Made by a program: the position numbers and the translations under genes
Source: Shewanella oncorhynchi
GTDB lineage: Bacteria > Pseudomonadota > Gammaproteobacteria > Enterobacterales > Shewanellaceae
Assembly: GCF_012584455.1 (NCBI RefSeq)
Contig: NZ_JABAEB010000018.1
Location: forward strand, 1 to 64,000
Length of the DNA stretch: 64,000 bases
Direction: 5' to 3'
Notes under the pieces: model-generated
Told to the model about the DNA's origin: nothing
The model's input: the letters and a program-made list of their open reading frames with translations, nothing else
Database searches by the model: none
Shown here: positions 5,501-55,552 of the stretch, one piece after another
How positions within the stretch are numbered: the stretch's first letter is position 1
Layout of the letters: each line of letters begins with the position of its first letter

Positions 5501-6589
5501 CTAGCTCCTCTTTACTCTGACGTAACCACCGGGTACTGCTATTACCCAACCTTGCAACTCAAGTTCAAGCATTTGTTCTAACACCAGATCTATCGTTTTT
5601 CCACTATGTTCAACGACTGCATCAATTGATGTAGTTTCATAACCTACACTAGCTAACAGAGACGAAAATGGCAAATTACAAATCTCGTCTTGCTGTATAT
5701 GGTGGCATAACTTCAATTCTTCAAGGTGGAAAGCGGTTAAACTTGCCAACTCTTCCACTATATCGGCAGCGGTTTCCACAAGCTTTGCTCCATCACGTAA
5801 TAAATCATGGCAGCCTTGATGGTAACCCCCTAAGATTGAGCCCGGAACGGCAAACACCTCACGCCCTTGTTCCATCGCCAACCTAGCAGTGATTAAAGAG
5901 CCGCTTTTGCGACAGGCTTCAACCACAAGAGTACCTAAAGATAGACCGCTAATAATGCGATTTCGTTTCGGGAAATTACCCGCAAAGGGACCAGTATCGG
6001 GCCAAAACTCGCTAAGTATACAGCCTTGCCGCTGAATATCATGATAAAGCTGTCGATGTTTTCGTGGATAAATGATCTCTATGCCCGTTCCTAGTACGGC
6101 AATAGTGCGCCCTTGATGGTCAACACAGGCTTTATGGGCCGCCCCATCAATCCCCATCGCCATGCCACTACAGATACCAAATCCCATTGAGGACATCTCA
6201 GCAGCCAGTTGATAAGCGACCTGCAATCCGCCTGGAGAAGCATTACGACTGCCAACAATAGCAAGATAAGGAAGGGCTAACGCCTCTAAGCAACCTTTAA
6301 CGAACAGGACGGCGGGCGGATCTGAGAGTTGTTTTAATAATGGTGGATAAAGCGGATCAGAGAAACAAAGCAGATGATGATCGGCGGCTTGCTGTTGCCA
6401 TTCGAGGGCGACATCCACTTTTTGATAATCAATAACAAGGCTATGGAGCAGATGATCAGATAAAGGTAGCGCTTGTCTCTCATGCTCTAACCTTTGTCTG
6501 AGGTCGTCCACTTCCATGTGCGTTAATAATTGTTGGATCCGAGCGGGTCCTAGCCCAGATACAGCACAAACAACTAACCAATCAACCAA
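5501..6589 (-). CDS. dprA: DNA-processing protein DprA (Smf)
   Basis: Loads RecA on incoming single-stranded DNA in competent bacteria; it is also widespread in species not known to be transformable. The 362-residue protein has an N-terminal SAM-like helical segment, a Rossmann-like domain with [11 protein letters not shown] (111-121) and [13 protein letters not shown] (141-153), the [12 protein letters not shown] block, and a C-terminal winged-helix domain ending in [16 protein letters not shown]. The start is TTG, 11 bases after the upstream LysM gene; no ATG fits better. Confidence 0.93.
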
Positions 6590-22787: not shown

Positions 22788-23954
22788 ATGCTACAAACGG
22801 AACAGACCCTTTTCGAACAAATGCGGATCACTGAGCTGGAGATCGAGTCTCGTAAGGCACTCTTCTCTTTTACTGGGGCGGACGTAAAGGCCCTGCAATC
22901 CTTTAAGCCCATCATTGAAGAAAACATAGATAAAATCGTCGACGACTTTTACGGCTTACAAACCAGTGTGTCAGAAATTGCGCTCTTGATTGGAGACTCA
23001 GACACCCTTGCCCGCCTGCGTACCGCACAGAGAAGATATGTGCTTGATTTATTTAATGGTGTTTATGATCTTGAGTACGTAAACAATCGCCTACGGATTG
23101 GTTTAGTCCATAAACGCATTGGTGTTGAGCCCAAACTTTACCTGTCTGCGGTACACACACTCAAGGAGTTGATCTATGCCGTGATCAACGGCTCAGTACA
23201 AGATGTACGTCAAGCCGAACGTATTCGAGCCGCAATTGATAAACTCGTGCTGTTTGATGTCACACTAGTATTCGATACTTATATTCGCAGTTTAGTCTCA
23301 GAGATTGAGAACGCTAAAGATAAGGCCGAGAAATATGCCCAAAGCATGGAAAGCAAAGTCAAAGAGCGGACCCAGCAGTTAGAAGAACTCTCGCAAACCG
23401 ATCCCTTAACAGGTTTGCTCAACGTAAGGCACTTACAAGAAACCGCAACTCGCATACTCAGAGCAGCCCAAAGACGCGCCGAGCCTGTATGTGTCATCTA
23501 CTTAGATGTAGATGATTTTAAATTATTTAATGACACTCAAGGCCATAGATCAGGTGATGAAGTACTTTGTGCTGTCGCAAAAGCGATTAAAGAAACCACT
23601 CGTGCTGAAGATCAATGTTTTCGATATGGTGGAGATGAGTTCTGTATCATCATGCCTAACTGCCGTGAGGAACAAGCTCGCGAGAATTTCATCACTCGGT
23701 TTAATCAAAAAATAAAACTCAGTCTAAACAATATTTCCTTAAGCTTTGGCATTACAGATACTGGCCCCTATGAATATGAAGAAGCCAATAGCTTAATTCA
23801 TAAAGCCGATCAAAAAATGTATAGCTACAAACGGGCGTCCAAATTGCAGCAACAAACTATGGCGGCAGCAAATGATTTAGCACCAGAGAATAGTACAGCT
23901 GTCATCCATCCAATCTCTCAATCTCAAAGCGCTGCTGATAAAGCCGTTGAGTAA
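22788..23954 (+). CDS. globin-coupled sensor diguanylate cyclase
   Basis: A 388-residue soluble protein from ATG 22788 with AGAGGA upstream. The N-terminal globin-coupled sensor domain (about 15-165) has the proximal haem His108 in GLVHKRIGVEPKLY. A short coiled linker (about 170-200) leads to a GGDEF domain with intact GGDEF at 281-285 and an I-site RAED (272-275) exactly five residues before it. It should therefore make cyclic di-GMP under O2 or other gas control and be product-inhibited, by analogy with E. coli DosC (YddV). The C-terminal tail of about 35 residues is low-complexity. Confidence 0.92.
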   Translation: MLQTEQTLFEQMRITELEIESRKALFSFTGADVKALQSFKPIIEENIDKIVDDFYGLQTSVSEIALLIGDSDTLARLRTAQRRYVLDLFNGVYDLEYVNNRLRIGLVHKRIGVEPKLYLSAVHTLKELIYAVINGSVQDVRQAERIRAAIDKLVLFDVTLVFDTYIRSLVSEIENAKDKAEKYAQSMESKVKERTQQLEELSQTDPLTGLLNVRHLQETATRILRAAQRRAEPVCVIYLDVDDFKLFNDTQGHRSGDEVLCAVAKAIKETTRAEDQCFRYGGDEFCIIMPNCREEQARENFITRFNQKIKLSLNNISLSFGITDTGPYEYEEANSLIHKADQKMYSYKRASKLQQQTMAAANDLAPENSTAVIHPISQSQSAADKAVE

Positions 23955-23979
23955 TGTTAATTACTATCAGCCATAAGTT

Positions 23980-23995
23980 TGTTCCACGTGGAACA
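23980..23995. other. parS: parS centromere site 1
   Basis: Perfect palindrome TGTTCCACGTGGAACA, matching the known parS consensus (TGTTNCACGTGNAACA), the binding site of chromosomal ParB. It lies 26 bases after the cyclase stop in the intergenic stretch before tusA. parA and parB are at 53876-55552 in this window. Confidence 0.92.
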
Positions 23996-24129
23996 TTTTA
24001 TCTCTAGCTTTGGTAACGACAAAAAGCACACCAATCAAACCACATCACAAATTGAGACCACCAACTTGGTTTATCATGGGGGCTGGAGTAACATTAGCTA
24101 ATTCTGCTTAACCGTTCAGTAGAGGTAAT

Positions 24130-24375
24130 ATGAACGACGCTTTCTCAACCGCACAGCATAGGCTCGATGCAATAGGCTTACGTTGCCCAGAACCTGTAAT
24201 GATGGTGCGTAAAACGGTAAGACAAATGGCTGCAGGCGAGACACTGCTGATCATTGCCGATGACCCTGCAACGACACGCGATATTCCAAGCTTCTGTGAG
24301 TTTATGGATCACACCCTTATCGCCAGCGAAACGGCTCAGACGCCATACCAATATTTGATCAAAAAAGGACTTTAA
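24130..24375 (+). CDS. tusA: sulfur carrier protein TusA
   Basis: An 81-residue SirA/TusA-fold protein with the persulfide-carrying Cys19 in [13 protein letters not shown]. It accepts sulfur from IscS and passes it to TusBCD for tRNA s2U34 thiolation, and also to other sulfur pathways. GAGGT precedes the ATG. The downstream MOSC gene is 48 bases away on the same strand, so the two are probably co-transcribed. Confidence 0.93.
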
Positions 24376-24423
24376 GTCGTATCGTTTTAGCGACTTAATC
24401 ATTAAAAAAGGATGTGAGGAACT

Positions 24424-24870
24424 ATGCCAAAACTGCTGGCAATTGCCTATAAAACTGTAAAGCGCGGCCCAATGAATGAGGTTCTCTGTGCCAATGTCAC
24501 CCAGTTAAATGGTGTAGAGAAAGATGTATTTGGTCGTCCAGGCAAACGCCAAGTCACTGTGCTTTCCAAACTACAATGGCAACAAGCCTGTCGTGCTATC
24601 GAGGCAGAATTGCCTTGGACGACTCGCAGAGCAAATCTGCTCGTTGATGGTCTAGTATTTAGCAGTGCAGATGTTGGTAAACATTTACAGATTGGTGAGT
24701 TACTACTTGAAATTACAGGTGAGACCGATCCTTGTAAAAAAATGGAAATTGCACATGTTGGTTTAGAAGCCGCACTCACCCCAGATTGGCGAGGAGGTGT
24801 AACATGCAGGGTATTGAATGACGCTATGATCCACTTAGGTGATGAGATAGCAATTTTCTTTCCTAGCTAA
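24424..24870 (+). CDS. MOSC-domain protein
   Basis: A 148-residue single-domain MOSC protein (Mo-cofactor sulfurase C-terminal family). The conserved Cys104 sits in ETDPCKKME, with the GRPGKRQVTVLS block before it. MOSC proteins carry persulfide sulfur or bind Mo-cofactor-related ligands; the substrate here is not known. Position directly after tusA suggests a sulfur-handling pair; this is inference. GAGGAACT precedes the ATG. Confidence 0.85.
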   Translation: MPKLLAIAYKTVKRGPMNEVLCANVTQLNGVEKDVFGRPGKRQVTVLSKLQWQQACRAIEAELPWTTRRANLLVDGLVFSSADVGKHLQIGELLLEITGETDPCKKMEIAHVGLEAALTPDWRGGVTCRVLNDAMIHLGDEIAIFFPS

Positions 24871-24911
24871 TCCAATCAGCCTATCTCAGCTAGTTCTCCA
24901 TACTCCTCTAT

Positions 24912-24940
24912 AAATAGAACCAAATAACTTGGTTCTATTT
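24912..24940 (+). terminator. probable terminator after the MOSC gene
   Basis: A 12-bp perfect stem, AAATAGAACCAA / TTGGTTCTATTT, has a 5-base loop. Only a short T-rich stretch follows, so strength is uncertain. Confidence 0.55.
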
Positions 24941-25114
24941 CTGTTGTCCCAATCCTAATATAAATATCAGCTTTCTAGCTCGAACATCAATTGAAACAGT
25001 ATTTACGTTTTCCTTCCTATCTATTTATGCGATAACTACACCAAGTATTAACAAAACTTTATCTTGTGATTAATACCGCTCATGTAGCCCATAAGAACGA
25101 TAACAGGAAGTGAC

Positions 25115-28100
25115 ATGTTGAACTCTAAACTTACCCCGCTTTATATTGCCCTCACTCTTGGGATGAATACCCTCGCAGTTAACGCCACAGAAACGAAAGA
25201 ATCGACTTGGAATGTTAACGCTCCAGCGAATGCTCCCTTAGTGCAAGTCAAAGTTGATGTTAATGAAGGCACTTGGATGAACTTAAGTGTCAGCCCAGAT
25301 GGTAAATATATCGTCTTCGACTTACTCGGTGACATCTACCAAATTCCAGTAACAGGCGGTGAAGCTAAGCCATTAGCCCAAGGCATAGCTTGGCAGATGC
25401 AGCCCGTCTATAGCCCTGATGGCAAGCACATTGCTTTTACGTCCGATGGTGATGGTGGTGATAACATTTGGATTATGGATGCTGATGGTAAAAACCCAAG
25501 AACAGTTACCCAAGAAACCTTCAGGCTGCTAAACAGTCCAGCTTGGAGCCCAGACTCCCAGTATCTGGTTGCCCGTAAGCACTTTACCGCCAGTCGTAGT
25601 TTGGGTGCGGGCGAAGTGTGGCTATACCACGTTGCGGGTGGTGAAGGCGTTAAATTGACCGAGCGTCCTAATGATGAGAAAGATTTAGGTGAACCCGCGT
25701 ATTCACCCGATGGTCGCTATATCTACTTTAGCCAAGATGACACGCCGGGTAAAACATTCCATTACTCAAAGGACTCGGTCAACGGTATCTACAAAATAAA
25801 ACGCTACGATACTCAAACTGGTGAGATTGAAGTATTAATCGAAGGCACGGGTGGTGCAATTCGGCCAACGCCGAGCCCAGACGGCACTAAGCTCGCCTAT
25901 ATTAAGCGCGATGATTTTCAGTCATCACTCTACCTACTCGACCTTAAGTCGGGAGAGACGACTAAACTGTTTGGCGAACTTGACCGTGATATGCAAGAGA
26001 CTTGGGCCATTCATGGCGTCTATCCAACAATGGCATGGACACAAGATAACAAGGATATTTTCTTCTGGGCTAAGGGAAAAATTAATCGTCTGAATGTTGC
26101 CAATAAAACACTCACAGATATCCCCTTTAGTGTAAAAACTGAGTTAGCCATACAACCCTCGGTGCGCTTTAAGCAAGATATCGATAAAGACGTTTTCGAT
26201 GTAAAAATGCTACGTATGGCGCAAGTCTCACCGGATGGTAGCAAAGTCGCCTTCGAAGCACTGGGGAAAATTTGGTTAAAATCCTTACCCGATGGCAGAA
26301 TGTCGCGCTTAACTGATCTAGACAAAAATATTGCAGAACTTTATCCCCAATGGTCGCGCGATGGTAAAAATATTGTTTTCACCACTTGGAATGACCAAGA
26401 CCAAGGCACAGTACAAGTGATTAGCGCCAAAGGTGGCAAACCTAAGCAGCTAACATCTGAACCAGGAAAGTATGTCGAACCCACCTTTTCACCCAATGGT
26501 GAACTCGTAGTGTATCGTAAAACTCAAGGCGGTAACCTCACACCAAGAACTTGGTCGCAGGAGCCCGGGCTATATAAAGTCGATATTAAAGGTAAACAAA
26601 ATAGCAAGATCAGTACCGATGGCTATCAAGCTCAATTCGGTGCCAATGCTGATCGCGTCTTTTTTATGAATAGCAGCGAAGATGAAACGCCGCAGTTATC
26701 ATCCATCAACTTAGACGGCTTCGATAAGCGGGTTCATTACAGCAGCAAACATGCAACTGAATTTAGGGTTTCACCCGATGGCGAGCAACTCGCCTTTGCT
26801 GAACGCTTTAAGGTTTGGGTAACACCTTTTGCTAAACACGGCGAGACAGTTGAGATTGGCCCCAATGCCAGCAATCTACCCGTAAGCCAATTGAGTGCCC
26901 GTGCGGGCGAAAGTATCAGTTGGAACAGTAAAAGCGACCAACTATATTGGACTCTTGGCCCCGAGTTGTACCAAGCCAAGGTTGACACTCAATATCGCGA
27001 CAAAGATGAAAAGGCACAACCAAGCATTATCGATTTAGGCTTTACCGAAAAGGCCGATGTTCCACGTGGAACAATCGCCTTCGTCGGTGGCAAAGTGATT
27101 ACGATGGAAAATGACCAGGTGATTGATAATGGTGTGGTCATAGTCAAAGACAATCATATTGTCGCCGTAGGCGATGCCAATGTTGCGATTCCTAAGGATG
27201 CGCAGATCATCGACATCAAAGGCAAATCCATTATGCCAGGACTATTCGATGCCCATGCCCATGGACCGCAAGCAGATGATGAAATTGTGCCACAACAGAA
27301 CTGGGCGCTGTATTCAGGCTTATCCTTGGGTGTCACCACGATTCACGATCCCTCGAATGACACCACAGAAATCTTTGCCGCATCTGAGCAACAAAAAGCA
27401 GGTAATATTGTTGGCCCACGAATATTCTCCACCGGCACCATACTTTATGGTGCCAATGCGCCTGGCTACACATCGCACATAGACTCACTAGATGATGCCA
27501 AATTCCATCTTGAACGCCTGAAAAAAGTTGGAGCCTTTAGCGTAAAAAGCTATAACCAACCGCGCCGCAATCAGAGACAGCAAGTCATAGCCGCAGCACG
27601 TGAACTCGAAATGATGGTCGTGCCTGAAGGTGGCAGCTTGCTGCAACATAATTTAAGCATGGTCGCCGATGGACATACTACGATTGAGCACTCACTCCCC
27701 GTTGGTTCAATCTATAACGATATCAAACAGTTTTGGAGCCAGACTCAAGTTGGTTACACGCCAACCTTAGTGGTTGCCTATGGTGGTATTTCTGGTGAAA
27801 ACTACTGGTATGATAAAACCGATGTGTGGGCACATCCACGCCTATCCATGTATGTGCCAGCCGATATTTTACAAGCAAGATCAATGCGACGCCCCCATGC
27901 ACCAGAGAGCCACTACAATCATTTCAATGTTGCTAAGGTTGCTAACGAGCTCAATAAGTTAGGGGTTCACCCAAATATTGGCGCCCACGGTCAACGTGAA
28001 GGTTTAGCGGCACATTGGGAAATGTGGATGTTTGCCCAAGGCGGCATGAGCAATATGGAAGTGTTGAAAACGGCCACCATTAATCCAGCGACGACCTTTA

Positions 28101-28303
28101 GCATGGAGCAGCAACTCGGTTCTATCAAAGAAGGTAAGCTCGCAGACTTGATCGTTATTGATGGTGATCCATTAGCCGACATTCGCGTCACCGACAGAGT
28201 CACTCATACTATGGTCAATGGTAAGTTATTTGATGCAGAGACTATGAAGGAACTTAATGGGGATAAAGAACAGCGTAAGCCGTTTTTCTTTGAGAAACTC
28301 TAA
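25115..28303 (+). CDS. exported TolB-type beta-propeller / amidohydrolase fusion
   Basis: A 1062-residue protein. The signal peptide (about 1-24, ending VNA) is followed by two blocks of WD40/TolB-like PD40 repeats (SPDGKYIVF, SPDGKHIAFTSD, SPDGRYIYFS, SPDGTKLAYI and others, about 40-600). An amidohydrolase domain covers about 655-1050, with metal-binding His714 and His716 in FDAHAHGP, TTIHDPSN, TTIEHS and the closing GSIKEGKLADLIVID. Probably periplasmic. The substrate is unknown; imidazolonepropionase- or prolidase-like activity is possible. A parS palindrome is embedded in codons about 648-653, at the propeller-amidohydrolase junction. Confidence 0.88.
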   Translation: MLNSKLTPLYIALTLGMNTLAVNATETKESTWNVNAPANAPLVQVKVDVNEGTWMNLSVSPDGKYIVFDLLGDIYQIPVTGGEAKPLAQGIAWQMQPVYSPDGKHIAFTSDGDGGDNIWIMDADGKNPRTVTQETFRLLNSPAWSPDSQYLVARKHFTASRSLGAGEVWLYHVAGGEGVKLTERPNDEKDLGEPAYSPDGRYIYFSQDDTPGKTFHYSKDSVNGIYKIKRYDTQTGEIEVLIEGTGGAIRPTPSPDGTKLAYIKRDDFQSSLYLLDLKSGETTKLFGELDRDMQETWAIHGVYPTMAWTQDNKDIFFWAKGKINRLNVANKTLTDIPFSVKTELAIQPSVRFKQDIDKDVFDVKMLRMAQVSPDGSKVAFEALGKIWLKSLPDGRMSRLTDLDKNIAELYPQWSRDGKNIVFTTWNDQDQGTVQVISAKGGKPKQLTSEPGKYVEPTFSPNGELVVYRKTQGGNLTPRTWSQEPGLYKVDIKGKQNSKISTDGYQAQFGANADRVFFMNSSEDETPQLSSINLDGFDKRVHYSSKHATEFRVSPDGEQLAFAERFKVWVTPFAKHGETVEIGPNASNLPVSQLSARAGESISWNSKSDQLYWTLGPELYQAKVDTQYRDKDEKAQPSIIDLGFTEKADVPRGTIAFVGGKVITMENDQVIDNGVVIVKDNHIVAVGDANVAIPKDAQIIDIKGKSIMPGLFDAHAHGPQADDEIVPQQNWALYSGLSLGVTTIHDPSNDTTEIFAASEQQKAGNIVGPRIFSTGTILYGANAPGYTSHIDSLDDAKFHLERLKKVGAFSVKSYNQPRRNQRQQVIAAARELEMMVVPEGGSLLQHNLSMVADGHTTIEHSLPVGSIYNDIKQFWSQTQVGYTPTLVVAYGGISGENYWYDKTDVWAHPRLSMYVPADILQARSMRRPHAPESHYNHFNVAKVANELNKLGVHPNIGAHGQREGLAAHWEMWMFAQGGMSNMEVLKTATINPATTFSMEQQLGSIKEGKLADLIVIDGDPLADIRVTDRVTHTMVNGKLFDAETMKELNGDKEQRKPFFFEKL
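27058..27073. other. parS: parS centromere site 2, inside a coding region
   Basis: Perfect TGTTCCACGTGGAACA within the amidohydrolase-fusion gene, encoding the peptide VPRGT at the domain junction. Identical to the sites at 23980 and 28390. Confidence 0.9.
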
Positions 28304-28381
28304 GGGCAACTTTCAAGTCTAGGAGAATAGCTTTCCTGTTGAGACCGTTTAAGTTTAACAAGATGAGTTCCAGCGAAGCTC

Positions 28382-28413
28382 AAAAAGCATGTTCCACGTG
28401 GAACATGCTTTTT
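28382..28413. other. parS: parS centromere site 3, embedded in a terminator-like 32-bp palindrome
   Basis: TGTTCCACGTGGAACA (28390-28405) is the centre of the perfect palindrome 28382-28413, extended on each side by AAAAAGCA / TGCTTTTT and followed by more T. On RNA it forms a 16-bp hairpin with a U tract, so it can end transcription from the amidohydrolase gene and, on the other strand, from tag, while serving as a ParB site. Confidence 0.88.
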
Positions 28414-28473
28414 TGTATTTGGATACTCTACAAGAGTTTTCTTTAATATCAGTCAGCCCAACGATTAATGATT

Positions 28474-29064
28474 CTAGTGGCTATGCTCAGCACAGGAATC
28501 GACACAGGCCTGATAAGCAATACACTCGACAAGGTGATCGTTCACCATACCCACCGCCTGCATAAAGGCATAACAAATGGTTGGACCGACAAAATTGAAT
28601 CCGAGTTTCTTCAACGCCTTTGACATGGCTTCAGATTCTGGTGTTTGTGCCGGAACCTGCGACATTGCCCTAATCTGATTAACTATGGGTTTACCGCCCA
28701 CAAAGCTCCACAAAAATGCAGAGAAATCCTTCCCATCGGCTGTATAGGCTAAATAACCTTTAGCATTCTTGATGATAGAGTTCACCTTCAAGCGATTGCG
28801 CACTATACCGGGATTCAACATGAGCTCCTCTACCTTCGCCTCATCGAAAGTCGCAATAATCTCAGGTTCAAAATTAGCAAAGGCCTGTTCATAGTTTTGT
28901 TGCTTCTTCAGGATAGTTATCCAAGATAATCCGGCCTGTTGACCATCTAAACACAACTTAGCAAACAGCTCCTTTGGATCATAAACAGGTCGCCCCCACA
29001 CTTTGTCGTGATACTCACGATACAAGGGATCATCACTGACCCAGCCACAGCGGATCTCTTCCAT
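28474..29064 (-). CDS. tag: DNA-3-methyladenine glycosylase I
   Basis: A 196-residue base-excision enzyme that removes 3-methyladenine. It starts at ATG 29064 with AAGG upstream; the long extension to 29271 overlaps glyQ and is rejected. The Tag zinc ligands are in place: Cys6 (RCGWV), His19 (YHDKVWG), and His177 and Cys181 (NDHLVEC). The helix-hairpin-helix region is in QQAGLSWITILKK. It is divergent from glyQ. Confidence 0.95.
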   Translation of the reverse strand: MEEIRCGWVSDDPLYREYHDKVWGRPVYDPKELFAKLCLDGQQAGLSWITILKKQQNYEQAFANFEPEIIATFDEAKVEELMLNPGIVRNRLKVNSIIKNAKGYLAYTADGKDFSAFLWSFVGGKPIVNQIRAMSQVPAQTPESEAMSKALKKLGFNFVGPTICYAFMQAVGMVNDHLVECIAYQACVDSCAEHSH

Positions 29065-29181
29065 GGTATATAACCTTATTGTTTTAATTAAGAAGGTAAA
29101 AAATAACCTACATAAGCAGATATCTACAAGGTATAATCGAACCCATTTTCTATTCAGGCTGACGGCAGTAGACAAGTAGAC

Positions 29182-30087
29182 ATGACGACAAAACACGACG
29201 TAAAAACATTTCAGGGTTTCATTCTCACCCTGCAGGAATATTGGGCACAGCAAGGCTGTGCAATTGTTCAACCTCTAGATATGGAAGTCGGCGCGGGTAC
29301 ATTCCACCCACAAACTTTCCTACGTTCTTTAGGGCCAGAACCTATGAGCAGTGCCTATGTGCAGCCATCGCGCCGCCCTACGGATGGTCGTTACGGTGAA
29401 AACCCTAACCGTCTGCAGCACTACTACCAATTCCAAGTCGTGTTGAAGCCTTCACCTGACAATATTCAAGAGCTGTATTTAGGCTCACTGCAAGCACTGG
29501 GTATTGATACTCAAATCCACGATATCCGCTTTGTGGAAGATAACTGGGAATCACCAACACTAGGTGCTTGGGGCTTAGGCTGGGAAGTTTGGCTTAATGG
29601 TATGGAAGTGACTCAGTTTACTTACTTCCAACAGGTCGGCGGCATCGAATGCAGCCCTGTCACAGGTGAAATCACCTATGGCCTAGAGCGTCTGGCCATG
29701 TATATCCAAGGCGTAGATAGTGTTTATGATCTCGTATGGACCGATGGTCCACTAGGCCTAATCACCTATGGCGATGTGTTCCATCAAAACGAAGTCGAGC
29801 AATCGACCTATAACTTCGAACACGCCGATGTGGATTTTATGTTCACCCTGTTCGATCAGTGCGAAAAAATGTGTCAGCATTTATTGTCGCTAGAAAAACC
29901 CTTACCTCTGCCCGCTTACGAGCAAGTGATGAAAGCCTCACACGCCTTCAACCTGCTCGATGCCCGCCATGCCATTTCAGTTACCGAGCGCCAACGCTAC
30001 ATCTTACGTGTTCGTACTATGGCGAAAGCGGTCGCTGAATCTTATTATCAGGCACGCGAAGCGCTTGGCTTCCCAATGTGTAAGTAG
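29182..30087 (+). CDS. glyQ: glycyl-tRNA synthetase alpha subunit
   Basis: A 301-residue class II synthetase subunit of the bacterial alpha2beta2 GlyRS, which binds glycine and ATP. Motif-rich blocks include [20 protein letters not shown] and [17 protein letters not shown]. The start is ATG 29182. glyS follows after 10 bases. Confidence 0.98.
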
Positions 30088-40337: not shown

Positions 40338-41420
40338 TTATTCAATTACCGTTACACGTCCCTGTTCCACATGAAACATCCTACTGGGAGGCGTGTGTAA
40401 CGAATCGACTATTGCAGCAGGATCAATGGCGGTCACAAAAACTTGTGCTCCGGTATCCGTTAACTGCTTAAGCAATAGCTGCCTATGCTGTGCATCCAAC
40501 TCGGACGGAAGATCATCCACAAGATAAATACTGTTTTTATCTATTTGTTGTTTGAGCAACTTTCCCTGTGCAATACGCAGTGCACAGACTAATAATTTCA
40601 ATTGACCACGGGACAGGGCATCCTGCGCCGGCAAAGTGCCTACACGAAGTCTAAGGTCAGCTTTATGGGGACCGCTGACGGTATGACCTGTGGCCAAATC
40701 TCTGGAATATTGGTTTTCGAGTAGTTCTGCAAAATCCGTTTTACTATCCCAGCCGCGCGTAAATGAAACCTTCACATCGACACTCGGTAAAAACTCCCCG
40801 ATTATACCCTTAAGTAGCTCATTTAACGAGTCTACATAATGGTTTCGTATTTCGGTGACCTGCTCGGCATAGCGCACAAACTCTTGGTCCCAAAATTGAA
40901 TATGACTGTAAGCCGAACCGTTTCTAAGCAATTGATTTCTTTGTTTAAGAACGCGACGAACATTCGTCCAAGCGCCATAAAACTGTGGGTCAGCATGAAA
41001 TGCGCCCCAATCGATAAATTGTCGACGGGATTTTGGGCCTTCAAACAGTAAAGAAAAGCTTTCAGGTGTGATCACTTGAATAGGTAAAGCTTCGGCTAAT
41101 GTCGACAGACGTTTAACTTTTTCGCCGTCGATTTTCACTTCCGTCTCACCATTGCGAAATCGGCGTAAACCAATTTTACTGTCACCGCGCGCTAAATTTA
41201 AAGTCGCAAATAGCGTTAATTTATCGTCATCGTGATTAATCACTCGTTGGGATAAATGGCTGCGAAAAGAGCGCCCCATACCGAGGAAATAAATGGCTTC
41301 TAAAATACTGGTTTTTCCGCTGCCATTTTGACCATAAATCACGTTAATCCCAAGAGCGGGGATTAACTGTGCGGACTGAATGTTGCGAAACGCTTCAATA
41401 TTGAGACGGGTCAGGCTCAT
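40338..41420 (-). CDS. recF: recombination mediator RecF
   Basis: A 360-residue SMC-like ATPase that helps load RecA at gaps. Walker [10 protein letters not shown] (30-38), the ABC signature LSRGQLKLL and Walker [11 protein letters not shown] are visible. The 3' end contains an imperfect parS sequence (40363-40378). A 200-base gap separates it from dnaN. Confidence 0.97.
40363..40378. other. degenerate parS-like site inside recF
   Basis: TGTTCCACATGAAACA differs from the perfect palindromes at two positions and is still TGTTNCAnnTGNAACA-like. The central CG of CACGTG is replaced by CA. ParB may bind it weakly or not at all. Confidence 0.5.
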
Positions 41421-50294: not shown

Positions 50295-50735
50295 ATGGCA
50301 AAGATTGAAGTAATCGTTGGTACAACATTGGGCAGTGCAGAGTATGTTGCCGACGAAATGATGGCCCAATTAACGGAGCAAGGACACCAAGTTCAAGTTC
50401 ATTTAACCCCAACATTGTGCGAAATAGACACCCATGCACTGTGGATTATCGTGTCATCAACTCATGGAGCTGGTGATCTTCCAGATAATATTCAGCCTTT
50501 TTTCAACGAAATTACCGAGCAAAAACCGGATCTCAGCCAAGTAAACTTTGCCTTATGTGCAATTGGTGACTCAAGTTACGATACCTTTTGCCAAGGCCCA
50601 GAAAAATTAATTTCGGCCATTCAAGACTGCGATGCAAAAGCCTTTGTGGATAAGATCCAGATCGATGTACAGCTTGATCCTGTGCCGGAAGACCCAGCCC
50701 TTGCATGGTTAGCACAATGGCAACAGGACATTTAA
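50295..50735 (+). CDS. mioC: FMN-binding protein MioC
   Basis: A 146-residue flavodoxin-like protein with the FMN phosphate loop GTTLGSAEYVAD near residue 9 and SSTHGAGDLPDN. In E. coli MioC takes part in biotin synthesis as an electron carrier, and its transcription enters oriC. The placement directly upstream of the origin is the same here. Confidence 0.95.
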   Translation: MAKIEVIVGTTLGSAEYVADEMMAQLTEQGHQVQVHLTPTLCEIDTHALWIIVSSTHGAGDLPDNIQPFFNEITEQKPDLSQVNFALCAIGDSSYDTFCQGPEKLISAIQDCDAKAFVDKIQIDVQLDPVPEDPALAWLAQWQQDI

Positions 50736-51174
50736 GATCGCTTATTGGATAAGGTCCCGATCTATGTACAGTTTAGATCCTATTTATCCACAATTTACTT
50801 GTTTAAAGTATAAACATGTGGATAAGCTATTATTTAGATCTGATCAACCTCTGTACTATTCACAGTCCGATCTGCTTAATGATCCGCCTTGTGGATAAGT
50901 AGGCGATCTATCCCCATGTTTAATGACATTAGATCGCGATCAGATCACAGGATCAAGATCGCGCTAATTAATGATTTATATAATGAATTTGGGTTATGCA
51001 CAGAAAAACGCGATCCTAATAGTAAACATAATAAGAAGATCTATATAAAGATCTTAAGATCTATTAGTCCTGATCATCTCGATCGAACAGCGTAAAATGA
51101 TCATTCACCTAAGACGAAGCAAATGCTAAAATGCTCGGCTCGTACTGAGTCTCTTAGCAATTGAAGGTAGTGGC
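50736..51174. other. oriC: replication origin oriC
   Basis: A 439-base intergenic region between mioC and mnmG, as in E. coli. Perfect DnaA boxes: TTATCCACA at 50784-50792 (+), its complement at 50817-50825 and 50890-50898 (-), and TTATGCACA at 50994-51002 (+). Weaker ones: CTATTCACA 50856-50864 and CTATCCCCA 50908-50916. About 20 GATC sites for Dam/SeqA. A/T-rich GATCT repeats at 51038, 51050 and 51058 on the mnmG side look like the 13-mer DNA unwinding element. Confidence 0.93.
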
Positions 51175-53875: not shown

Positions 53876-54664
53876 GTGGGTAAAGTGATTGCCGTGGCTA
53901 ACCAGAAAGGTGGCGTAGGAAAAACAACTACTTGCGTTAACCTCGCCGCTTCGTTAGCAGCAACAAAACGTAAAGTATTATTGATCGATCTCGATCCTCA
54001 AGGTAATGCCACCATGGGGAGCGGTGTCGATAAGTATGACGTAGCTAATACAGCCTATGAATTATTGGTTGAAGAAAAATCCTTCGACGAGATCGTCATT
54101 AAAAACACTGCGGGTAAGTATGATCTGATCGCCAGTAATGGCGATGTCACTGCGGCAGAAATCAAATTGATGGAGTTTTTTGCCCGTGAGATCCGTTTGC
54201 GTAACGCACTCGCACCGATCAAAGATCAATATGATTATATCTTTATCGACTGCCCTCCTTCATTGAACATGTTGACCGTAAACGCTATGTCTGCGGCCGA
54301 CTCTGTACTCGTGCCTATGCAGTGTGAATATTATGCCCTCGAAGGCTTAACGGCACTGATTGATACCATCACTAAGCTCGCAGCTATGGTTAATCCTGGA
54401 CTTGGCATCGAAGGCATTTTACGTACTATGTATGATCCGCGTAATCGTTTATCTAATGATGTGTCCGATCAGCTAAAACAACATTTTGGTGACAAAGTCT
54501 ATCGTACCGTTATCCCACGTAATGTGAGGCTAGCAGAAGCACCAAGTTTTGGAGCGCCTGCTATGTATTACGATAAATCGAGTGCCGGCGCTAAGGCGTA
54601 TCTAGCGCTTGCGGGTGAAATGATCCGTCGTTCAGAACAACAAACTCAGGCTAAGCAAGCGTAA
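53876..54664 (+). CDS. parA: chromosome partitioning ATPase ParA (Soj)
   Basis: 262 residues with deviant Walker A KGGVGKT (11-17) and LLIDLDPQGN. It segregates replicated origins with ParB and parS. GTG start after AGGGTG. parB follows after 9 bases. The cognate parS sites in this window are at 23980, 27058 and 28390. Confidence 0.97.
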   Translation: MGKVIAVANQKGGVGKTTTCVNLAASLAATKRKVLLIDLDPQGNATMGSGVDKYDVANTAYELLVEEKSFDEIVIKNTAGKYDLIASNGDVTAAEIKLMEFFAREIRLRNALAPIKDQYDYIFIDCPPSLNMLTVNAMSAADSVLVPMQCEYYALEGLTALIDTITKLAAMVNPGLGIEGILRTMYDPRNRLSNDVSDQLKQHFGDKVYRTVIPRNVRLAEAPSFGAPAMYYDKSSAGAKAYLALAGEMIRRSEQQTQAKQA

Positions 54665-54673
54665 AGGATCACC

Positions 54674-55552
54674 ATGACGTTGAAGAAAAGAGGATTAGGC
54701 AAAGGGTTAGATGCCCTACTGAGTAACAGCCATGCCGCCAGTAAAAAGCACACTGACGAAGCTGATGTTGTCGATAAAAAAGAAGAGCTTATCCATCTCG
54801 ATTTAGACTTATTACAGCCAGGTAAGTATCAACCTCGTAAAGACATGTCCCCCGAAGCGTTGGAAGAACTGGCACACTCGATCCGCAATCAAGGCATTAT
54901 TCAGCCTATCGTTGTAAGACAAGTAACGAATAACATGTATGAGATTATTGCGGGTGAACGTCGTTGGCGTGCTGCGCAACTTGCTGGTTTGAATAAAATC
55001 CCCTGCATAGTAAAGCAAGTACCTGATGAAGCCGCTGTTGCTATTGCTTTGATTGAAAACATTCAGCGTGAAGACTTAAATGCCATGGAAGAAGCCATTG
55101 CATTGCAACGTTTAATGCAAGAGTTTGAACTGACTCACCAACAGGTTGCCGATGTTGTGGGAAAATCCAGAGCGAGTGTATCTAACTTGTTACGTTTAAA
55201 CGGCTTAAATGAGCCTGTTAAGCGTCTACTCGAGTATGGCGACATTGATATGGGTCATGCTCGCGCTTTGTTGGCAATTGAGGGAGAAGAACAAACAAAT
55301 CTTGCGAGATTAGTGGCCGCTAAGGAATTAACCGTTCGCGAAACTGAACGATTAATTAATCAAACCTTAAATCCGCCTAAACAAGCCGAAACTACGACTA
55401 AAGATCAAGATGTTTGTCGTTTAGAGCAGCAGTTAATTGAAAGATTAGGTGCCAAGGTTTCGATCGCTCATAGCAGTAAGGGCACGGGTAAAATTGTAAT
55501 TAACTATCAGAATCTGGCTGAATTAGACGGAATTCTTAGTAAAATTCATTAA
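54674..55552 (+). CDS. parB: chromosome partitioning protein ParB (Spo0J)
   Basis: 292 residues. The N-terminal CTPase/ParB domain carries the arginine patch GERRWRA (94-100) and the NIQREDLNAMEEA block. A helix-turn-helix (about 155-175, HQQVADVVGKSRASVSNLL) reads parS; the C-terminal dimer domain follows. It binds parS, spreads, and is moved by ParA. Confidence 0.97.
   Translation: MTLKKRGLGKGLDALLSNSHAASKKHTDEADVVDKKEELIHLDLDLLQPGKYQPRKDMSPEALEELAHSIRNQGIIQPIVVRQVTNNMYEIIAGERRWRAAQLAGLNKIPCIVKQVPDEAAVAIALIENIQREDLNAMEEAIALQRLMQEFELTHQQVADVVGKSRASVSNLLRLNGLNEPVKRLLEYGDIDMGHARALLAIEGEEQTNLARLVAAKELTVRETERLINQTLNPPKQAETTTKDQDVCRLEQQLIERLGAKVSIAHSSKGTGKIVINYQNLAELDGILSKIH

Follow-up and report, generated by a model that had tools for sequence, protein, structure and literature searches.

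A parS site that probably doubles as the hairpin of a bidirectional terminator in Shewanella

At positions 28382–28413 of the window, by which we mean the whole stretch of 64,000 nucleotides of Shewanella oncorhynchi DNA that was analysed, lies a perfect 32-bp palindrome that is very probably one element with two functions: a parS site in DNA and a bidirectional transcription terminator in RNA. The central 16 bp (28390–28405) match exactly the palindrome TGTTCCACGTGGAACA, which we take to be the parS consensus of chromosomal ParABS systems. An earlier note on this DNA had described the palindrome, placed it between two convergent genes and proposed that one sequence may serve both segregation and termination. 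The palindrome proved exact in sequence and coordinates, and its location between convergent genes is confirmed by the open reading frames and their Pfam domains. The proposed double use is strongly supported by genome comparison, through the covariation of the stem, the U tracts and the existence of relatives that possess one feature only. The RNA hairpin, which had been given as 16 bp, folds instead as 14 pairs closing a 4-nt loop. The features concerned are as follows.

23980–23995, no strand: third parS, an exact match, between a GGDEF/protoglobin gene and a tusA-like gene
25115–28303, + strand: amidohydrolase with WD40-like (PD40) repeats, 1062 aa (ORF; Pfam PD40 and Amidohydro_1), transcribed towards the element
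27058–27073, no strand: second parS, inside the amidohydrolase gene, without a perfect-register palindrome and without a U tract
28382–28414, no strand: predicted bidirectional intrinsic terminator with a parS core, in the order A5, GCA, parS, TGC, T6
28382–28386, - strand: U tract for the tag transcript (A5 on the + strand), read from the sequence
28386–28389, no strand: left arm beside the core (offsets 1–4), covarying with 28406–28409
28390–28405, no strand: parS core TGTTCCACGTGGAACA, an exact match at the centre of the hairpin
28406–28409, no strand: right arm beside the core (offsets 1–4), covarying with 28386–28389
28409–28414, + strand: U tract (T6) for the amidohydrolase transcript, read from the sequence
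28474–29064, - strand: tag, 3-methyladenine DNA glycosylase (ORF; Pfam Adenine_glyco), convergent, with its stop at 28474; the start codon was chosen by us within the ORF 28474–29271
50645–50898, no strand: likely oriC, with four DnaA boxes (matches to TTATCCACA), upstream of mnmG and about 22 kb from the element
53876–54664, + strand: parA (Pfam AAA_31 and CbiA)
54674–55552, + strand: parB (Pfam ParB_N, HTH_ParB and ParB_C: N-terminal, HTH and dimerisation domains)

The element and its neighbourhood

The element is composed of A5 (28382–28386), GCA (28387–28389), the parS core (28390–28405), TGC (28406–28408) and T6 (28409–28414). As RNA of the + strand it folds into a hairpin of 14 pairs with a 4-nt loop at -21.4 kcal/mol (z -4.95), and as RNA of the - strand into one of the same dimensions at -20.5 kcal/mol (z -4.94), with T6 and T5, respectively, behind the hairpin. 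A stable hairpin in this way runs straight into a U tract where a gene ends, as in an intrinsic terminator. A scan of positions 23000–30000 for terminator-like structures returned nine sites, against 6.5 (sd 3.0) in shuffled sequences, and the longest stem among the nine is that of the 28382–28413 element. The parS at 28390 is flanked by eight further pairs, as against none at each of the other two parS sites of the genome. The odds of eight flank pairs matching by chance are of the order of 4^-8, and a chance palindrome is ruled out by the conservation and covariation across Shewanella that are described below. Hairpin energy was rejected as proof of a terminator: the gene-internal parS at 27058 likewise forms a stable fold once a bulge is permitted (-23.1 kcal/mol, z -4.55), and energy alone is therefore not distinctive. 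What sets the 28390 copy apart is its unbulged register together with its U tract.

The genome contains three exact parS sites (23980, 27058 and 28390), all inside 4.4 kb and approximately 22–27 kb from the DnaA boxes, and both ParA and ParB are encoded in the window, as are, by names read from the translations, dnaA, dnaN, recF, gyrB and mnmG. The parS at 27058–27073 encodes the residues VPRGT within the amidohydrolase; because this gene-internal site is kept in Shewanella and in five outgroup genes, the coding stretch also seems to be held to the ParB site. At the end of recF, a parS-like site with two mismatches (40363–40378) lies over the residues MFHVEQ. The MnmG frame of a Chitinophaga locus (L178) starts with MFHVEH, which a parS-like sequence could encode.

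Conservation and covariation in Shewanella

Among 97 Shewanella genomes, 89 carry an exact parS. The glyQ gene was located in 96 of the 97 (one, G077, had no glyQ match and was not taken), and approximately 6.8 kb was taken on its upstream side; three of the stretches are cut by contig ends or come from another contig, and for L165 the contig holding parS was used, the glyQ of that genome lying on a different one. The 96 sequences comprise 95 loci and the window. The amidohydrolase was undetected in six, representing five absences and one locus (L139) cut by a contig end, and the counts given here rest on the remaining 90 rows, window included. Every one of these rows carries one parS-like site 6–162 bp 3′ of the amidohydrolase stop. 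The core is exact in 79 rows and otherwise has the form TGTTTCACGTGAAACA (five rows), TGTTTCACGTGGAACA (three), TGTTCCATGTGGAACA (two) or TGTTCCACGTGGAACC (one), of which TGTTTCACGTGAAACA is the other symmetric form of parS, with a paired change in the core, and TGTTTCACGTGGAACA is a G-U form. The gene-internal parS-like site is found in 88 of the 90 rows and is exact in 70 of the 88.

Around this nearly fixed core, the stem is conserved by compensatory change. In all 90 rows the bases at offsets 1–4 are paired, as Watson-Crick or G-U, and each offset shows between two and four kinds of pair: offset 1 is A-T in 44 rows, G-C in 44 and G-U in two, and offset 2 is G-C in 57, C-G in 16, A-T in 16 and G-U in one. 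Counted over the 88 distinct rows, Watson-Crick pairs fill 349 of 352 cells and G-U pairs the other three; shuffles that ignore the relatedness of the genomes average 216.8 and reach 241 at most. On a FastTree tree of the amidohydrolase protein (88 rows; L090 and L092 were left out for having too little protein), offsets 1–4 require at least 31 pair changes (8, 8, 3 and 12), and the bases involved change 31 times on the left side and 28 times on the right side; thus, most of the changes must be two-sided.

The other two copies of parS served as controls. In the gene-internal copy, 94 of 312 cells are paired, against a shuffle mean of 92.2 and a maximum of 103; five or more perfect flank pairs occur in none of 88 copies, and a T run of four is present on the right in 20 and an A run of four on the left in 50. 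Such runs are thus not unique to the terminator copy. In the upstream copy, 135 of 308 cells are paired, which exceeds the shuffles (mean 99.6, maximum 128), and seven of 77 copies possess 7–8 perfect flank pairs, none of them with a T or A run of four. These seven copies, which lack a U tract, are those of L127, L136, L149, L150, L153, L154 and L169. Because arms of this kind occur without T or A runs, they are not unique to termination, and palindromic arms alone were rejected as proof of it.

Terminator scores were computed with a formula modelled on that of d'Aubenton-Carafa. They are positive in the forward direction in 88 of 90 terminator copies, in the reverse direction in 79 and in both directions in 77. 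The corresponding values are 0 (forward) and 1 (reverse) of 88 for the gene-internal copies and 0 of 77 in either direction for the upstream copies. If bulges are allowed, positive forward and reverse scores are obtained in 88 and 80 of the 90 terminator copies, 0 and 1 of the 88 gene-internal copies and 0 and 0 of the 77 upstream copies, leaving two failures forward (L156 and L163) and ten reverse. The earlier note had recommended a scan of other Shewanella genomes for parS within predicted terminators; by the forward score, 88 of 90 orthologous copies qualify. At offset 7, T is present in all 90 rows and A at the mirror position in 79, and over offsets 4–12 the right side has more T than the left side has A in 40 rows, with the opposite in 25. 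This distribution suggests a mild polarity of the element towards the amidohydrolase transcript.

Relatives with one feature only

For comparison, 24 genomes of the same order outside the genus were picked by hand, some of them for an earlier match to the parS pattern, and the amidohydrolase (cut-off E <= 1e-100) was found in nine. A parS-like site, with up to two mismatches allowed, follows the amidohydrolase stop within about 1.5 kb in none of these nine loci. By contrast, a different, non-parS terminator with a positive forward score lies within 260 bp in six of the nine, namely in another genus of the same family (L393), in family f196 (L395–L397) and in family f2 (L398 and L401). The remaining three (L394, L399 and L400) yield no positive terminator score; a hairpin is visible by eye in L394. 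In five of the nine (L393–L397), tag and glyQ are adjacent and a parS is located inside the amidohydrolase gene, exact in four and with one mismatch in L393.

The reverse situation occurs in the five Shewanella genomes that lack the amidohydrolase. Each has a parS-like site no more than about 50 bp from the tag stop (in L108, just inside the end of tag), the orthology of which was assigned by position alone; the forward scores of these sites range from -3.4 to -90.7, and a reverse score is positive only once (1.2, in L113). In L113, a short hairpin and T4 are kept, with scores of -3.4 and 1.2. In L114, a long palindrome without a U tract surrounds the parS at position 5778. Absence of the amidohydrolase corresponds to three changes on a tree of tag and glyQ, at least two of which are forced by supported branches; L113, L114 and L118 cluster together. 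All three states, a terminator that lacks parS, a parS that lacks a convincing terminator and the two combined, are thus predicted at this locus, with orthology taken from position. A simple reading would place the origin of parS inside a pre-existing terminator site in the ancestor of Shewanella.

Recurrence outside Shewanella

A pattern scan (A4-N(2-6)-parS-N(2-6)-T4) of 84,980 species returned at least 118 stretches. Among the matches listed, 114 are from outside Shewanella (110 loci), and 53 of them have at least eight perfect flank pairs, as against 1.14 on average and never more than 5 in 2000 trials of random re-pairing; the first 80 loci alone, again among the matches listed, give 36 of 77, where 0.93 would be expected. 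These flank-pair counts include near relatives. Sites with at least seven flank pairs occur, among the matches listed, in at least eight phyla, with Bacillota (27), Bacteroidota (13) and Pseudomonadota (12) contributing most. Such matches need not all be terminators, as the score of L197 is below zero. The 14 genomes with such sites that were inspected contain just 1–7 sites of the form TGTTYCACGTGRAACA each, and in three (G468, G473 and G476), which are metagenome assemblies and possibly incomplete, the sole site is the palindromic one.

Within single groups, the arrangement is infrequent. Of 61 Rikenellaceae genomes searched, 51 have a match and loci were taken from 30; mnmG was found in 28 loci, and parS lies 0–100 bp 3′ of the mnmG stop in 25 of these 28. 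Five of the 28 loci contain a parS with a terminator-like score one way or both ways. In Methylophilaceae, where loci came from 30 of 51 matching genomes, at least five flank pairs are present at six of 40 sites, three of these six with a T- or A-rich tail. The A4...T4 parS pattern is found in none of 368 other genomes of the class sample, and a looser pattern occurs in 14 of 184 non-Shewanella genomes of the order sample, with perfectly paired flanks in two (G754 and G657). The idea that this is a general feature of parS in all bacteria is therefore unsupported, given its rarity in the class and order samples and its sporadic occurrence in Rikenellaceae and Methylophilaceae. On the sequences compared, the putative fusion of parS and terminator recurs yet looks sporadic, and Shewanella is the one group in which it was found to be nearly universal.

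Individual loci show some regularities of placement. In Bacteroidota (L307–L336, L188, L193, L194, L220, L225 and L197), parS is often located right behind the mnmG stop, sometimes with terminator-like flanks. Relatives of Methylotenera (L207, L210, L219, L233 and L244) and two Caballeronia species (L181 and L186) have terminator-like stems with a parS core (flanks gcag/ctgc and ggcg/cgcc), some of which adjoin an apparent mnmE or mnmG gene.

Alternative explanations

The palindromic flanks and the A/T tracts might together constitute an extended ParB-binding or parS-DNA feature (symmetry, A-tract bending or a cruciform) that has nothing to do with termination. The long palindromic arms without U tracts in seven of 77 upstream copies and in L114 would fit such a feature, as would the excess of pairs over shuffles in the upstream copies as a class and the palindromic parS flanks of G754 and G657 in the order sample. 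Nevertheless, it is very unlikely to be the explanation: the gene-internal copy, with 70 of 88 exact as against 79 of 90, is about equally conserved and yet never has five perfect flank pairs, a positive forward score accompanies the amidohydrolase (88 of 90 loci with it, 0 of 5 without it), a terminator unrelated to parS occupies this position in six of nine outgroups, and offset 7 shows a mild polarity towards the amidohydrolase transcript. The converse view, in which the element is a terminator only and the parS match is a by-product that ParB does not use, can draw on the two further exact parS sites inside the same 4.4 kb, but it is extremely improbable. The site is within two changes of parS in all 90 rows (79 exact, five of the symmetric form and six with single changes) while the adjoining stem bases vary freely, a parS-like site persists in the five genomes without the amidohydrolase, and the genome encodes both ParA and ParB.

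Two further explanations accept both functions and connect them; the earlier note had raised links of this sort, suggesting that ParB might alter termination or that transcription might disturb ParB. The element may act as an insulator, in which termination of convergent transcription at parS shields ParB loading from RNA polymerase. This seems rather doubtful, even though 77 of 90 copies score above zero in either direction of transcription and, among non-Shewanella A4...T4 sites, placement between convergent genes is found for 14 of 39 sites with at least seven flank pairs, compared with two of 24 with three or fewer and seven of another 59 low-pairing sites (from crude gene calls in 80 of the at least 118 loci). 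The second parS is presumably transcribed, since it lies inside the amidohydrolase gene, and yet a parS-like site is kept there in 88 of 90 rows; moreover, the same pair of genes has a terminator without parS in outgroups, which implies that the terminator is there for the genes. Alternatively, ParB bound at parS may tune termination. It could, for instance, stand as a roadblock and make RNA polymerase pause at the U tract, where a paused polymerase would overlap the right half of parS. In Pseudomonas aeruginosa, according to the excerpts of PMC5521831, the genes next to parS3 and parS4 are repressed by ParB at these sites. By contrast, ParB with CTP leaves parS as a sliding clamp according to the excerpts of PMC8367383, so that occupancy of parS itself should be brief. 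A tuning role is unlikely.

A model for the dual element

The explanation that we favor is therefore an element with two separate functions that tolerate each other. In duplex DNA, the central 16 bp would be parS, one of three such sites near oriC, and would act as a loading site for the ParB of the same genome. RNA polymerase arriving from either gene would transcribe parS; the palindrome would then fold, and the polymerase would be released at the U tract, so that a single bidirectional terminator may serve both the amidohydrolase and tag. The parS palindrome would provide the upper stem and the loop, and three to four flanking pairs with the A/T tracts would complete the terminator, with the flanking pairs free to change as long as pairing is kept. 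ParB binding at the element, termination in the cell and the mutual tolerance of the two roles are what we infer; the tolerance would arise because ParB, in its CTP form, slides off parS quickly and leaves the site mostly clear, as suggested by its escape as a sliding clamp (PMC8367383, in excerpt). A firmly bound dCas9 stops ParB sliding in vitro unless ParB is recruited in trans, according to the excerpts of PMC9242446, and a terminating polymerase could for this reason matter locally.

It is tempting to speculate further, although the idea is improbable, that parS has become a terminator repeatedly across phyla because the ParB palindrome is a ready-made hairpin, and that Shewanella keeps the fusion because ParB loading and the release of RNA polymerase share the same bases, in such a way that the roles interact (the state of ParB tunes termination, or termination protects ParB loading).

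Significance and comparison with known systems

As far as the open-access literature searched shows, no earlier centromere-like site has been described in which the comparison of genomes indicates two distinct constraints, one on a ParB site in DNA and the other on a hairpin in RNA. Together with its relatives that have one feature only, the element offers a natural single-locus system for studying how DNA is shared between ParB clamps and RNA polymerase. In practical terms, altering a terminator near oriC in such species could affect segregation, and predicted terminators can hide parS sites.

The earlier note knew of no described case. No description of parS as a terminator hairpin was found in the open-access literature searched, and the excerpts of PMC5521831, PMC12779278, PMC10286716, PMC8585504 and PMC7022226 contain no mention of parS in a terminator; to that extent the statement stands. 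A clear precedent of the same kind nevertheless exists, since uptake signal sequences have been co-opted as the stems of intrinsic terminators in Neisseria and Pasteurellaceae, as described in the excerpts of PMC1852404 and PMC2397512. The principle is thus known, and these DNA-uptake sequences are its closest precedent; the literature searched yielded no centromere-like parS used in this manner.

In those bacteria, as far as the same excerpts describe them, a sequence-specific DNA signal with another job serves as a terminator stem, as parS probably does in Shewanella. The uptake-sequence terminators are formed by two complementary copies, lying close together and pairing, of a signal present in high number (generally at least 1,000 per genome). 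Unlike these, the Shewanella element is a single palindromic ParB site of low copy number (three exact copies in the genome) that would provide both stem and loop, and not two inverted high-copy signals. P. aeruginosa parS1–parS4 are intragenic, or intergenic beside promoters (PMC5521831, in excerpt), whereas the Shewanella parS lies in a predicted terminator hairpin.

In its ParABS setting and in its terminator setting, the element otherwise resembles what is known. It is similar to the parS sites of the chromosomal ParABS systems of Bacillus, Pseudomonas and Caulobacter in having what is presumably the same 16-bp consensus, in belonging to an oriC-proximal cluster and in the presence of ParA and ParB genes near oriC. 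It is likewise similar to ordinary bidirectional terminators between convergent genes, such as that present at this locus in outgroups, in possessing a paired stem with A and U tracts 6–162 bp after a stop. By contrast with these ordinary terminators, the upper stem of the Shewanella element appears to be constrained to a protein-binding site; consequently, it is mainly the flanks that are free to vary.
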